NCBI GenBank assembly: GCA_944363925.1
Contig: CALVVS010000004.1
Location: 1-44,401 of the forward strand
From: an uncultured Bacilli bacterium
GTDB taxonomy: Bacteria > Bacillota_I > Bacilli_A > RF39 > UBA660
Direction of reading: 5' to 3'
Length of the DNA: 44,401 nt
Shown piece after piece: positions 24,707-44,401 of the stretch (position 1 is its first letter; the number at the start of each line of letters is the position of its first letter). Under the pieces are notes generated by a model. The model was not told the DNA's origin. It saw only the letters and a program-made list of their open reading frames with translations, and made no database searches. A program made the position numbers and the translations under genes.

Positions 24707-25786
24707 ATGAAAACAATATCTCTTTGTATGATTGTCAAAGATGAAGAAAAAGTCTTAGATACTTGCTTAAATAGTATTCATGACTTAGTCGATGAAATAA
24801 TTATCGTAGATACTGGCTCTACTGATAAAACCAAAGAAATAGCTCAAAAATATACAGATAAAATCTATGATTTCAAATGGGTTGATGACTTCGCTAAAGC
24901 TAGAAACTATTCGTTTTCCAAAGCCACTAAAGACTATATAATGTGGTTAGATGCCGATGATTACTTGCCAGAAGAAGAAAAACCAAAATTTAAAAAACTA
25001 AAAAAATCGCTAAATGACACAGTAGACATGTATACCATGATTTATATATATAGTAGAGATAAAAATGGCATGCCCACCTATGTACAAAGAAAATATCGTT
25101 TGTTAAAAAGAAAAAATAATTATCAGTGGGAAAGTCCAATCCATGAATTTATAAAACCGAAAGGCAAAATAGTCACCACAGATATAACCATTATCCACAA
25201 TAAAATTCATGTAAACGACCCCAATAGAAACCTTCGCATCTTTGAAAAAATGATTAAAGAAAACCATAAATTTACAATCAGAGAGCAGTACTGTTATGCC
25301 GATGCCTTGTATAGAAATAGAAATTATCAAAAAGCTATTGAATTATTTGAAGAATTTGTCGCAAAAACATTAACTAATTATAATCAAAATAAACATTATC
25401 TATATCTAGCCCTAATCGAATTAGCAGATTGCTATAAATTTACAAATAACCCAAGAAAAGAAATAAACACCTTGCTTTTAATCTTAAAAAATCAAATTCC
25501 AACAGTTAATCTCTTATATAAAATAGGTGACTTTTTCCGTAGACAAAAACAATATAAAATGGGTGTCTATTGGCTCAATCTTGCAGTAAATAGTTCAGAA
25601 GTTTCCGATAATCAACAATACGAAAAATACTTAAGTTACATAAGCTTAGGCATATGCTATTATTATTTAAAAGATTATGAAAAAGCCTATAATACCAATG
25701 AAAAAGCCGGAAAAATATCACCTAATAGCCAAACATATATAAATAATAAAAAAATATATCAGCAGTTTCTAAAAAATAACCAGTAA
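24707..25786 (+). CDS. Family 2 glycosyltransferase with C-terminal TPR repeats
   Basis: This 359-residue cytosolic protein has an N-terminal GT-A domain: S-L-C-M-I-V-K-D-E-E-K, E-I-I-I-V-D-T-G-S-T-D-K-T, A-R-N-Y-S-F and the metal-binding D-A-D-D of W-L-D-A-D-D-Y. From about residue 195 the sequence is helical with TPR-like pairs (Y-C-Y-A-D-A-L-Y-R-N-R-N-Y-Q-K-A-I-E-L-F; L-G-I-C-Y-Y-Y-L-K-D-Y-E-K-A-Y). This SunS-like GT2+TPR layout is seen in peptide and protein S- or O-glycosyltransferases and in surface-glycan enzymes. No precursor peptide is adjacent. SD is weak (GGTGAT). Confidence 0.85.
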   Translation: MKTISLCMIVKDEEKVLDTCLNSIHDLVDEIIIVDTGSTDKTKEIAQKYTDKIYDFKWVDDFAKARNYSFSKATKDYIMWLDADDYLPEEEKPKFKKLKKSLNDTVDMYTMIYIYSRDKNGMPTYVQRKYRLLKRKNNYQWESPIHEFIKPKGKIVTTDITIIHNKIHVNDPNRNLRIFEKMIKENHKFTIREQYCYADALYRNRNYQKAIELFEEFVAKTLTNYNQNKHYLYLALIELADCYKFTNNPRKEINTLLLILKNQIPTVNLLYKIGDFFRRQKQYKMGVYWLNLAVNSSEVSDNQQYEKYLSYISLGICYYYLKDYEKAYNTNEKAGKISPNSQTYINNKKIYQQFLKNNQ

Positions 25787-40761: not shown

Positions 40762-40796
40762 AAAAGGTAATATGTAAAAAAGTTACCTTTTTTTAT
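40762..40796 (+). terminator. Terminator of the lipoprotein gene
   Basis: AAAAGGTAA (40762-40770) pairs with TTACCTTTT (40783-40791), followed by T. Confidence 0.85.
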
Positions 40797-40812
40797 TGTG
40801 TTTCACCCAAAA

Positions 40813-40841
40813 TTGTGGTATATTTACATAGGTAATAATAC
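40813..40841 (+). promoter_or_regulatory. Possible promoter of agrAC
   Basis: -35 TTGTGG (40813-40818), 17-base spacer, -10 TAATAC (40836-40841). Weak match; no AgrA-type direct repeats seen. Confidence 0.4.
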
Positions 40842-40858: not shown

Positions 40859-41560
40859 ATGATAAATTTTATTATTTGTGATGATGTCCAAAAATATCGC
40901 GAAATGGCTGAACGCGTCATAGATAGCTATATGATGAAAAATAAATTAGAATATAAAACACATATATTTAAAGATTATGATAGTAAATTTATGGAAATAG
41001 TAGAATCTAGACTGTCATTTAAAGTATATATCTTAGATATCGAAGCACCAACTAAATCAGGAATAGATATAGCTAGAATTATCAGAACTAAAGATGTTGA
41101 TAGTGTCCTAATATTTTTAACCGGCCATCAAGAACTAGGCCAAGTCGTAATGAAAAATGACTTTCTATTTTTATCTTTTATTAATAAATTTGATAATTGT
41201 GAACAACGATTAAAAAACTCAATTGATAAAGCATTACAAGTATTTAAAGTTAAAAGTGTTGTTAGATTTAAAGATAATGGCATAGTATATGCAATTCCCC
41301 AAAATGATATTTTATACATTACTAGAGATAGTGTTGATAGAAAATGTATCATTGTTACAGATTATAATGAATTTAAAGTTGGAAAATCTTTAAGTGAATT
41401 AGAAGAGAAGGTTAATAATAATTTTGTTAAAACTCATCGTGCTTGTTTAATGAATAGTAAACGTATCCTAAGTTTTAGCAAATCGCAAAAACAAGTTATT
41501 TTTGACAACGGTATGATATCAGACTTAGTTTCCACTAGATTTGATAAGGAGTTGGTATAA
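40859..41560 (+). CDS. agrA: AgrA-like response regulator (receiver + LytTR)
   Basis: This 233-residue regulator has SD GGAGGGAG. The receiver domain (1-120) has the acidic pair D8-D9, phospho-acceptor D60 in Y-I-L-D-I-E, T88 in F-L-T-G-H and K110. The LytTR DNA-binding domain (about 130-233) has F-K-D-N-G, V-K-T-H-R-A-C-L-M-N and a C-terminal S-T-R-F. AgrA binds promoters as a dimer after AgrC phosphorylates it. agrC starts directly after the stop. In staphylococci the order is agrBDCA; here agrA comes first, and agrBD lies downstream on the other strand. Confidence 0.88.
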   Translation: MINFIICDDVQKYREMAERVIDSYMMKNKLEYKTHIFKDYDSKFMEIVESRLSFKVYILDIEAPTKSGIDIARIIRTKDVDSVLIFLTGHQELGQVVMKNDFLFLSFINKFDNCEQRLKNSIDKALQVFKVKSVVRFKDNGIVYAIPQNDILYITRDSVDRKCIIVTDYNEFKVGKSLSELEEKVNNNFVKTHRACLMNSKRILSFSKSQKQVIFDNGMISDLVSTRFDKELV

Positions 41561-42874
41561 ATGGATGTTTTAAACTTTGGTGCTCATTTAATTGGTAATA
41601 TTTTAATGATGATTTATAGTATGATATGTTGGGCAAAATTTAATAAAAATGATTTAAAAAAGGTTTTAAACATAATAATAATATTAATATCTTCTCTGTT
41701 TATGACAGCAATAAGTCAGTACTTTCCTAATCCTGTAAAAATGTTTAATTCATTTTTAATACTAATATTCACTTGCTATTTATCTGTAAACAAAGATCTA
41801 AAAACTAGTATCTTATCTGTAATTACAACACAATTAGTTTTATGGATACCAGAATGTAGTTTTACAATTTTTATTCCATTATTTAATATTCAAAATGCTG
41901 AAGCCCTTATTTCAAACCCAGCTATATATTTGTTATTAATTGTCTATATAGTTTCTATTGGATGTATATTATTAAAGTTTAAAATTCCACAAAAGTTATA
42001 TCATTTATTGATCAGTTCAACTAGTTCAATAAAAAATAATGAAACAATGATTTATTCATTTGTCATCATTGCAATTATAATCATCTCATCAGCTGAAAGT
42101 TATATGAAACTTCCTACTGCCTTTATGTTAATGACAAATGGGTTGATGGCTATTATTTTTATAACTATAGTTATAATTTCAAGTAAAACCAAAGATAATT
42201 ATAATAAGATAAGTAGTAAATATCAAACTAGTATATCTAGCCTAAAAGAATATGAAGTCATGATTAATAAATTTGGTGTTTATACACATGAAAATAAAAA
42301 TGAATTTTATACCATTAGAAATATGTTAAAAGAGGGTGAGGATAGAGATAAAGTCATAAAGTATATTGATGCTTTAATAAATAATAAAATTAAAGATAAT
42401 GAAAAGATTATGAAGAAAACGGCCAAAATACCTTCTGGTGGTCTAAGAGCTACCATATACTCTAAATTGTGTTTGATGGATAAATTAAAAATAAAATATA
42501 AGTTAAATATTTCTAGAGATGTAAGTACTACTGATTTGATTAATTTAGATGAAGATTTAATTTTAAAAATATGTAAAATATTAGGTGTCTTTTTAGATAA
42601 TTCTATTGATGCGGTTAAAAAATTAAAGAAAAGAGAAATATCTATAGAAATATATATTCTAAATAAATACTTATGTATTGATATTACTAACAATTTTAAA
42701 GGTAATTTAGATTTAGATAAAATAAGTGAAGCTAAGTATACAACTAAAGGTGAAGGTCATGGTTATGGACTTACCTTAGTTAAACAAATATTAAATGATG
42801 AGTCTAAAAAATTAGAAAATGAAAAAAGTATTAACCGTGATACTTTTACGCAAACCTTAAAAATAAAAATGTAG
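41561..42874 (+). CDS. agrC: AgrC-like sensor histidine kinase
   Basis: This 437-residue kinase starts directly after the agrA stop. The N-terminal 210 residues hold six to seven membrane helices that should sense the peptide. A helical linker follows, then the phospho-accepting His243 in H-E-N-K-N-E-F-Y-T-I-R-N-M. The GHKL-type ATPase domain has F-L-D-N-S-I-D-A-V (N box) and G-E-G-H-G-Y-G-L-T-L-V-K (G box). This is the AgrC/CitA-type HPK10 family. It should phosphorylate AgrA when the cognate autoinducing peptide binds. Confidence 0.88.
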   Translation: MDVLNFGAHLIGNILMMIYSMICWAKFNKNDLKKVLNIIIILISSLFMTAISQYFPNPVKMFNSFLILIFTCYLSVNKDLKTSILSVITTQLVLWIPECSFTIFIPLFNIQNAEALISNPAIYLLLIVYIVSIGCILLKFKIPQKLYHLLISSTSSIKNNETMIYSFVIIAIIIISSAESYMKLPTAFMLMTNGLMAIIFITIVIISSKTKDNYNKISSKYQTSISSLKEYEVMINKFGVYTHENKNEFYTIRNMLKEGEDRDKVIKYIDALINNKIKDNEKIMKKTAKIPSGGLRATIYSKLCLMDKLKIKYKLNISRDVSTTDLINLDEDLILKICKILGVFLDNSIDAVKKLKKREISIEIYILNKYLCIDITNNFKGNLDLDKISEAKYTTKGEGHGYGLTLVKQILNDESKKLENEKSINRDTFTQTLKIKM

Positions 42875-42892
42875 ATTTGACGTTCTACATTT
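42866..42892. terminator. Bidirectional terminator between agrC and agrD
   Basis: AAAATGTAGA pairs with TTCTACATTTT around TTTGACG, with T-runs on either strand. It separates the convergent agrAC and agrBD transcripts. Confidence 0.8.
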
Positions 42893-42893
42893 T

Positions 42894-43013
42894 TTATTTA
42901 ATTAAACTTTTTGGACATTCTGGTTCATCAAGCCAAAGAAAATCACATGCCACACTACTTGCTCCAGCAAATAGTCCTCCAATTGATGATAATAATGATG
43001 CGATAAAACTCAT
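42894..43013 (-). CDS. agrD: AgrD autoinducing-peptide precursor
   Basis: This is a 39-residue gene on the minus strand, between agrC and agrB, with AAAGGAG before ATG 43013. Residues 1-18 form an amphipathic leader (M-S-F-I-A-S-L-L-S-S-I-G-G-L-F-A-G-A). The core has Cys23 in A-C-D-F-L-W-L. The C-terminal tail (residues 29-39: D-E-P-E-C-P-K-S-L-I-K) matches the acidic D-E-x-E-x-P-K tail of staphylococcal AgrD. AgrB should cut before D29 and close a Cys23 thiolactone, giving a ring C-D-F-L-W-L (6 residues), or C-D-F-L-W if L28 is trimmed. Extracellular signal sensed by AgrC. Peptide ends are predicted. Confidence 0.85.
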   Translation of the reverse strand: MSFIASLLSSIGGLFAGASSVACDFLWLDEPECPKSLIK

Positions 43014-43067
43014 AAACAAACTCCTTTCTTTCAATCTATGTCTAAATTATAAAATTTAAACCAATAA

Positions 43068-43667
43068 TTATGGACGGTAATTTTTATAGTTATCGTATGT
43101 CTCACCACATATTTTATATGTGGTTGGAGCTGTAATAACACACTGTATAAGTAATGCTAAAATAAACGCATTGGATAACAAATTATTATCGATTATTATC
43201 GAACAAACAACAAATATAATTGCCACTATAGTTGAAATAATTTTATATACTAGTCTTCTTTTTGGACTAACAATTGGTTTCTTAGCTGTATCTGCTGGAC
43301 TGTTTTTATGAATTAAAATAATTCCTATAATACCTAAAATAATTTTAAAATTAATCGGTATTATAATCTTTGAACTTAAGTAAGCTGATAAAATAAATAC
43401 TGAAGTTGAGGCAACTAAACATATCCAACTTTTTGATGCATGAATTCCAAAAGATGGCAATCTTATTAAATTATAAATAAGTGTAAAAATAAGTAGCTCT
43501 TTAAATATCCCAAGAAAATAGGCGATTGCGAATATAATAATTGATTTAGTAATTAGTAAATATAACCCAAGTAATCCATACCTTAATTCTGCAAGTTTAA
43601 CTTCAGAATAATCAGGATAGTATTTCTTAATAATGTTCATCGAATTACTAATAAATGCCTCTTTCAT
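43068..43667 (-). CDS. agrB: AgrB-like peptidase and exporter
   Basis: This 199-residue membrane protein starts at ATG 43667 (SD AGAGAGGTAG). It has five to six hydrophobic segments. Catalytic residues H76 and C83 lie in R-L-P-S-F-G-I-H-A-S-K-S-W-I-C, with the spacing of staphylococcal AgrB (H77/C84). It removes the AgrD tail, forms the thiolactone and helps export. agrD starts 54 bases after its stop, in the same direction. The K-K-P-I-V-S-P-K-R-R segment is the positively charged loop typical of the family. Confidence 0.88.
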   Translation of the reverse strand: MKEAFISNSMNIIKKYYPDYSEVKLAELRYGLLGLYLLITKSIIIFAIAYFLGIFKELLIFTLIYNLIRLPSFGIHASKSWICLVASTSVFILSAYLSSKIIIPINFKIILGIIGIILIHKNSPADTAKKPIVSPKRRLVYKIISTIVAIIFVVCSIIIDNNLLSNAFILALLIQCVITAPTTYKICGETYDNYKNYRP

Positions 43668-44010
43668 AATACTACCTCTCTTTACCATAAAAAATAATAC
43701 AACAAAATTAGACAAAAAATAAAAAAAATGTTTAAACGACGTAAAATTTTACCGGTTCGAAGCAAAAGTATTCTACTAGTGACACTTGTTAGCGTTCAGA
43801 CAAAATTAATAATCATTGAAACAAATTATTGAAAATAACTCTAATCTACGTGTAAAATTAAACTCGTCGATGTAGTACTTGTGCACATTTTTTTATAGTT
43901 TAGATGTAGTAAAAATTTTGTCGGAAAATGCAATACTAATTTAATTGAAAACTTAAAACTTTTCATTTATACTAGTATTGTAAGAGATTTACTAGAAGGG
44001 AGATGTAATT
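43668..44010. other. Regulatory stretch between agrB and csp
   Basis: There is no convincing gene in these 343 bases. It holds a perfect 12-base palindrome GTAAAATTTTAC (43741-43752), a repeated GATGTAGTA (near 43870 and 43911), and the csp promoter at its right end. The agrBD promoter must be here (minus strand), but I cannot place its -35 and -10 with confidence. AgrA sites are not clear; CCGGTTCGA (43752-43760) and AGCGTTCAG (43791-43799) are weak candidates. Confidence 0.5.
43945..43973 (+). promoter_or_regulatory. Promoter of the cold-shock gene
   Basis: -35 TTGAAA (43945-43950), 17-base spacer, -10 TATACT (43968-43973). Confidence 0.7.
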
Positions 44011-44223
44011 TTGAAAGGCAAAGTAAAATGGTTCAACAACGAAAAAGGCTTTGGCTTTATAGAATACAACGATAAAGAAGATATATTCGTCCACTATTCA
44101 GCTATTCTTACACCTGGTTATAAAACATTAGTTGAAGGCCAGTATGTTGAATTCGATTTAGTCAGAACTGATAAAGGCTTGCAAGCAAAAAATGTTGTTG
44201 AAATTAAAACTGCACTTGTGTAG
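44011..44223 (+). CDS. csp: Cold-shock protein (CspA family)
   Basis: This 70-residue OB-fold RNA chaperone starts at TTG 44011 after AAGGGAGATG. The RNA-binding motifs are intact: [12 protein letters not shown] (RNP1) and D-I-F-V-H-Y (RNP2). Y replaces the usual F after the V-H. Length matches the family. It binds single-stranded RNA and melts secondary structure at low temperature or in rapid growth. It has its own promoter and a terminator that overlaps the stop. Confidence 0.93.
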
Positions 44224-44312: not shown

Positions 44313-44401
44313 ATGAAATATATAATTCGTGGCAAAAAAGTCAAAGTCACAAATGACCTCAAAGAACATGCAGAAAAGAAGCTTTCAAAGCTTGATAAGT
44401 A
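44313..44401 (+). CDS. hpf: Ribosome hibernation-promoting factor, N-terminus (runs off window)
   Basis: The first 29 codons are present. ATG 44313 follows GGAAGGTGAT. The start M-K-Y-I-I-R-G-K-K-V-K-V-T-N-D-L-K and E-H-A-E-K-K-L-S-K-L-D-K matches the first strand and helix of HPF/YfiA proteins, which silence ribosomes by forming inactive dimers. Whether it is the long form (with a dimerisation domain) cannot be seen. Confidence 0.85.
   Translation, partial: MKYIIRGKKVKVTNDLKEHAEKKLSKLDK

Follow-up and report, generated by a model that had tools for sequence, protein, structure and literature searches.

A convergent agr locus with a cold-shock gene as putative output in uncultured gut Bacilli of the order RF39

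The four genes of an agr quorum-sensing locus lie at the right end of a contig from an uncultured member of the Bacilli (family UBA660, order RF39), with agrA-agrC on the forward strand facing agrB-agrD on the reverse strand and a cold-shock-domain gene, csp, beyond agrB (Table 1). The window analysed here is this entire contig of 44,401 bases, which is part of a 1.44-Mb assembly that is 76% complete, and additional targets, other copies of csp or a second agr system may therefore be absent from it. All four open reading frames (ORFs) were found where an initial, sequence-only reading of the contig had placed a complete agr locus and are recognised by curated family models, and we regard it as nearly certain that they constitute an agr circuit with convergent operons.

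Table 1 Genes and control elements of the agr locus, with positions in the window
Feature	Position	Strand	Description
agrAC promoter	40796..40824	+	TTGTGT-17-TATATT, extended -10 (TGG); no direct repeats
agrA	40859..41560	+	233 aa; response regulator with LytTR DNA-binding domain
agrC	41561..42874	+	437 aa; membrane sensor histidine kinase; hypervariable sensor (~1-205), GHKL kinase
Bidirectional hairpin terminator between the convergent operons	42865..42894		AAAAATGTAGA / TCTACATTTTT
agrD	42894..43013	-	39-aa signal precursor; leader MSFIASLLSSIGGLFAGASSVA, core CDFLWL, tail DEPECPKSLIK
agrB	43068..43667	-	199 aa; membrane endopeptidase processing AgrD; PF04647
Promoter-like block 3' of the repeats	43767..43785	-	GTGTCAC 43779-43785; -10-like AATACT/TATACT 43767-43772
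LytTR-type operator (predicted)	43792..43822	-	GTTTCAATGA-N11-GTCTGAACGC; consensus GTCTGAATGC twice, 21-bp period
Candidate csp promoter	43829..43858	+	TTGAAA-18-TAAAAT, just past the operator on the csp side
csp	44011..44223	+	cold-shock-domain RNA chaperone, divergent from agrB; PF00313, 92 bits

On the receiver side, profile searches identified in AgrA a LytTR domain (46.5 bits, cut-off 22.6) and a receiver domain that at 27.2 bits falls just below its cut-off of 30.2, with the phosphorelay residues present; the phospho-acceptor Asp60 and Lys110 are each kept in 51 of 52 sequences. Against the staphylococcal AgrA equivalog NF046049, this AgrA scored 39 bits compared with a cut-off of 400. 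AgrC contains a GHKL domain (PF14501, 47.1 bits); the phospho-His His243 and Asn347 are both present in 57/57 sequences, and a simple hydropathy scan detected five hydrophobic segments. Mean identity among AgrC proteins is 28.5% in the sensor half versus 65% in the kinase half. Four relatives (L033, L035, L081 and L091; genomes G008, G066, G087 and G040) have a tandem duplication of agrC between agrA and agrD, that is, two receivers per one regulator and one signal.

On the sender side, AgrB scores 103 bits against PF04647 (cut-off 23), and His76 and Cys83, on whose conservation the sequence-only reading had staked its case, are invariant in all 66 sequences. AgrD clears the cut-offs of both Pfam (PF05931, 23.1 bits, cut-off 22.7) and NCBIfam (TIGR04223, 27.2 bits, cut-off 19) and can therefore not be dismissed as a small ORF that arose by chance. 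A matching AgrD follows AgrB in nearly all relatives with enough sequence, and the proposed 39-residue AgrD with a Cys core and a DEPECP tail, for which an AgrD beside agrB in relatives had been named as a test, is thereby upheld. Among the 36 same-genus loci in which a Cys-core AgrD was automatically readable, the core invariably consists of Cys and five residues followed by DE or EE; the predicted macrocycle therefore has six residues, here Cys-Asp-Phe-Leu-Trp-Leu, in agreement with the six-residue ring with an aromatic residue suggested earlier. In other genera, the predicted ring has six residues in 17 of 21 cases, seven in three and five in one.

The ring core of AgrD is variable compared with the tail (mean identity 31.5% versus 88.5%). 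Across 28 complete loci, distances between AgrD cores track distances between AgrC sensors beyond those between AgrA proteins and kinase halves (partial Mantel r 0.35, p 0.0005), and distances between AgrD leaders follow those between AgrB proteins (r 0.40, p 0.0035). This co-variation is the pattern expected if peptide and receptor diversify together and if AgrB reads the leader. In four relatives (L095 in G016, L093 in G080, L137 and L235), Ser replaces the core Cys, as in SWIFWW and SYFWLS, implying a lactone and not a thiolactone. Another relative (L125:4001-8589) has a duplicated sender module in which a full agrB with the AgrD core CVIIFL precedes a truncated one that has its own AgrD (CWIWYM); two agrC genes come next, one broken and one intact.

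The stop codons of agrC and agrD are separated by 19 bp, and the corresponding gap spans 12-71 bp in the 36 same-genus loci, with overlap in none. The idea that the two operons overlap at their 3' ends is thus rejected for the coding regions; at most, the untranslated 3' ends of the agrAC and agrBD transcripts share the hairpin. That the operons meet at one terminator was, in contrast, borne out: the hairpin, with an 11-bp stem and an 8-nt loop, is terminator-like on both strands, folds at -10.5 and -10.1 kcal/mol on the two strands (z -4.8 and -6.1) and can end both transcripts. It was revealed by folding, while a generic terminator scan gave no hit because its stem rule demands three G-C pairs. 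Most same-genus loci retain the ATGTAGA..TCTACAT stem, whereas the loop and the length of the gap drift.

Counting the present genome, 42 of 44 genomes of the genus carry AgrB, as do many other genera of the family; sampling across the order detected it in 188/288 genomes and 75/102 genera. The convergent agrAC and agrBD operons read from the window recur in all 60 same-family loci in which agrB and agrC are both visible, as well as in named GTDB contigs (partly of the same species) and in approximately 20 further loci that include other genera. In the more distant Bacilli of the sample, agrB, agrC and agrA lie mostly in one direction, and convergence therefore seems to be characteristic of this lineage. 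The agr operons are also convergent in one Clostridia MAG (L139).

Sender and receiver have separate promoters. The promoter of agrAC has an extended -10 element, and a TGGTATATTT-like box of this type is conserved 5' of agrA in relatives; a pair of GTCTGAATGC units at 21-bp spacing was found upstream of agrA in none of the relatives, with a single borderline case (L091). Upstream of agrB lies the direct repeat that we predict to be a LytTR-type operator. Among 39 same-genus regions upstream of agrB, a spacing of 21 bp was the best of 20 tested in 28, and repeat scores of 16-18 out of 20 are common while 780 shuffles never gave more than 15, a spacing and shuffle test that is not independent, as the consensus was picked from the same 39 regions that were scored. 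A model built from the sequences of 28 sites recovered the agrB site in most congeners with agrB, the training sequences matching by construction, and gave no comparable site in the two congeners without agrB. In the divergent regions of other genera, the 21-bp signal is weak, and the orientation of the repeat differs among genera. LytTR regulators recognise 9-bp repeats placed 12 bp apart, i.e. with a 21-bp period, upstream of the -35 element (PMC6193735). At P2 and P3, the binding sites of AgrA are likewise direct repeats (PMC4227749). The repeat upstream of agrB is probably an AgrA operator. Because it precedes agrB and not agrA, AgrA feedback seems to reach the sender but not the receiver, in line with the earlier suggestion that the two can be regulated independently.

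Scanning the genome with an exact pattern of two near-consensus units gave no hit because the first repeat unit in this species is GTTTCAATGA. A search of the assembly that allowed mismatches yielded one real site, between agrB and csp, and one chance-like site inside a gene; the former is the sole strong repeat site in the assembly. Extra sites in relatives are mostly inside genes or in intergenic regions without a well-placed downstream gene, and we therefore claim no regulon. In one relative (L168; G015:C14 ~25743-25773), back-to-back copies of the operator lie 5' of a gene for a large secreted protein, DNRLRE/RHS-like by eye, which is a possible agr-controlled surface protein. The promoter-like block 3' of the repeats has a GTGT that is nearly invariant in the alignment of relatives, and the -10 element of agrB is ambiguous, with TATACT at approximately -100 and TATTAT at approximately -32 from the ATG. 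The GTGTCAC and TATACT block is also kept beside extra csp copies in G019 and G023, with no agrB following, and could be a third promoter or relate to a small RNA or a second factor.

The operator is located in the divergent intergenic region common to agrB and csp, which is the only cold-shock-domain (CSD) gene found in the 76%-complete assembly. csp is divergent from agrB, approximately 300 bp away, in 61 of the 66 loci with enough upstream sequence. Its candidate promoter matches the consensus at 10 of 12 positions, a level that shuffles reach as often, and the TAAAAT is conserved in relatives. In G019 and G023, csp is tandemly duplicated, and an operator that has clearly diverged but is intact persists at the extra copy. 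In two further genomes (G067 and G064), AgrB was undetected and agrA-agrC-csp lie in one direction, with an exact 11-bp repeat at a 21-bp period directly before csp (P ~0.001 or less for each by dinucleotide shuffles). The agrA-agrC pairs of these two genomes (L241 and L242, respectively), next to csp and with agrBD not found, might be signal-blind or eavesdropping receivers. In four other genomes (L243, L244, L245 and L246), a lone LytTR gene lies directly 5' of csp with no agrC, perhaps a remnant of the same system; no 21-bp repeat was found there. A match to the Rfam cspA thermoregulator (E 0.006, 22.6 bits against a gathering threshold of 78 bits) falls inside the csp coding region and was rejected as the gene itself. 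After csp, at 44313-44401, the window holds the start of a gene resembling the ribosome hibernation factor hpf.

Taken together, these observations lead us to favor, with a probability of roughly three in four, a model of an agr quorum-sensing circuit in which an AgrA-bound repeat raises the expression of agrBD and probably of csp. In this model, AgrB would cut AgrD before DEPECP and close the six-residue thiolactone; the exported peptide would be read by the variable AgrC sensor, and AgrC, as its conserved residues and those of AgrA suggest, would phosphorylate AgrA at Asp60. AgrA would bind the direct repeat in the agrB-csp divergent region and thereby raise agrBD, giving sender autoinduction, and probably csp as well, so that a cold-shock RNA chaperone would be the output where staphylococci place RNAIII. 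agrAC, on its own repeat-free promoter, would probably stay outside the feedback, and the bidirectional hairpin would insulate the converging operons.

The part of this model that calls for the closest weighing is the role of csp. The operator might serve agrBD only, with csp a bystander brought along by vertical inheritance and the real targets elsewhere under weaker sites. In relatives, csp is followed by hpf and a secA-sized ORF, an order that persists in genomes without agr, and the linkage of agr and csp could therefore be an inherited position; moreover, within the genus the repeat, together with GTGTCAC and the -10-like box, reads towards agrB, and agr regulons usually extend beyond the agr locus. 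However, the exact repeats before csp in the two genomes in which AgrB was undetected, the operator kept at the extra csp copies with no agrB following, and the lack of another strong repeat site in the genome all argue against this reading, to which we assign a real but clearly smaller chance. We lean, by a little, towards csp as a real AgrA target, which we consider the simplest reading, and it is plausible that the region is P2/P3-like, with an RNA chaperone taking the place of RNAIII. We are more tentative, at somewhat under even odds, about the broader picture of an agr system in a large order of uncultured gut Bacilli in which a P2/P3-like divergent region serves an often-single cold-shock RNA chaperone that replaces the regulatory RNA. 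If this were true, global RNA folding and translation would be under the direct influence of quorum, beside the ribosome-hibernation gene hpf.

Two other accounts depart further from this model. The strict conservation of convergence, with gaps down to 12 bp, might mean that the 3'-to-3' layout is itself regulatory, with read-through antisense RNA allowing sender and receiver to repress each other. What is conserved in the gap, however, is a terminator stem for both strands, and the ORFs never overlap; because the stem is kept while the loop and gap length drift, insulation is favored, and we consider antisense repression improbable. Still less probable is that the product of AgrBD is a small cyclic peptide directed against competitors, with AgrC sensing it for feedback only: the hypervariable, hydrophobic core with its aromatic residues would suit such a role, but core and AgrC sensor vary together, and the locus has no immunity or dedicated export gene.

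The quorum-sensing model has implications beyond this locus. To our knowledge, there is little or no cultured material for the order RF39, whose members are gut bacteria with small genomes and no virulence context; agr signalling is the norm among them (approximately two thirds of the sampled genomes). They provide dozens of natural sender-receiver pairs for studies of specificity. As far as we know, few agr targets have been described outside pathogens, and csp is a concrete, testable candidate output gene.

The system resembles agr of Staphylococcus aureus in its AgrB, AgrD, AgrC and AgrA families, in the Cys core and DE-P tail of AgrD, and in that the divergent control region adjoining agrB carries direct repeats of the LytTR type (PMC4227749, PMC12312760). 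In contrast to the single BDCA operon and five-residue core of S. aureus, AC and BD converge here and the core has six residues; the sequence of the repeat also differs, and the csp gene occupies the place of RNAIII, a search for which gave no match up to E 1. The novelty claimed in the sequence-only reading was overstated, in that six-residue rings of autoinducing peptides (AIPs) and separate agrBD and agrCA operons have already been reported in clostridia (PMC10301443, PMC12312760). Among these is the Clostridium acetobutylicum-type agr associated with CA_C0082, in which agrBD and agrCA form separate operons and six-membered AIP rings are predicted (PMC10301443); here, however, A and then C face D-B, the lineage is Bacilli and not Clostridia, and no LanM-like CA_C0082 gene was seen in the locus. 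The four relatives with a Ser core recall the GBAP lactone of Enterococcus faecalis fsr (PMC12312760), from which the system differs in its smaller predicted ring and convergent layout. The distant Bacilli G098, G109 and G147 have the same four families, but with agrB, agrC and agrA in one direction and a core of CIGF(A/I)Y before EP. We found no paper on convergent agr, a csp output or agr in RF39/UBA660 in a collection of mainly open-access papers, which is a weak negative. Thus, the locus is a member of the agr systems with a new structural layout, in which csp is a well-placed putative output gene.
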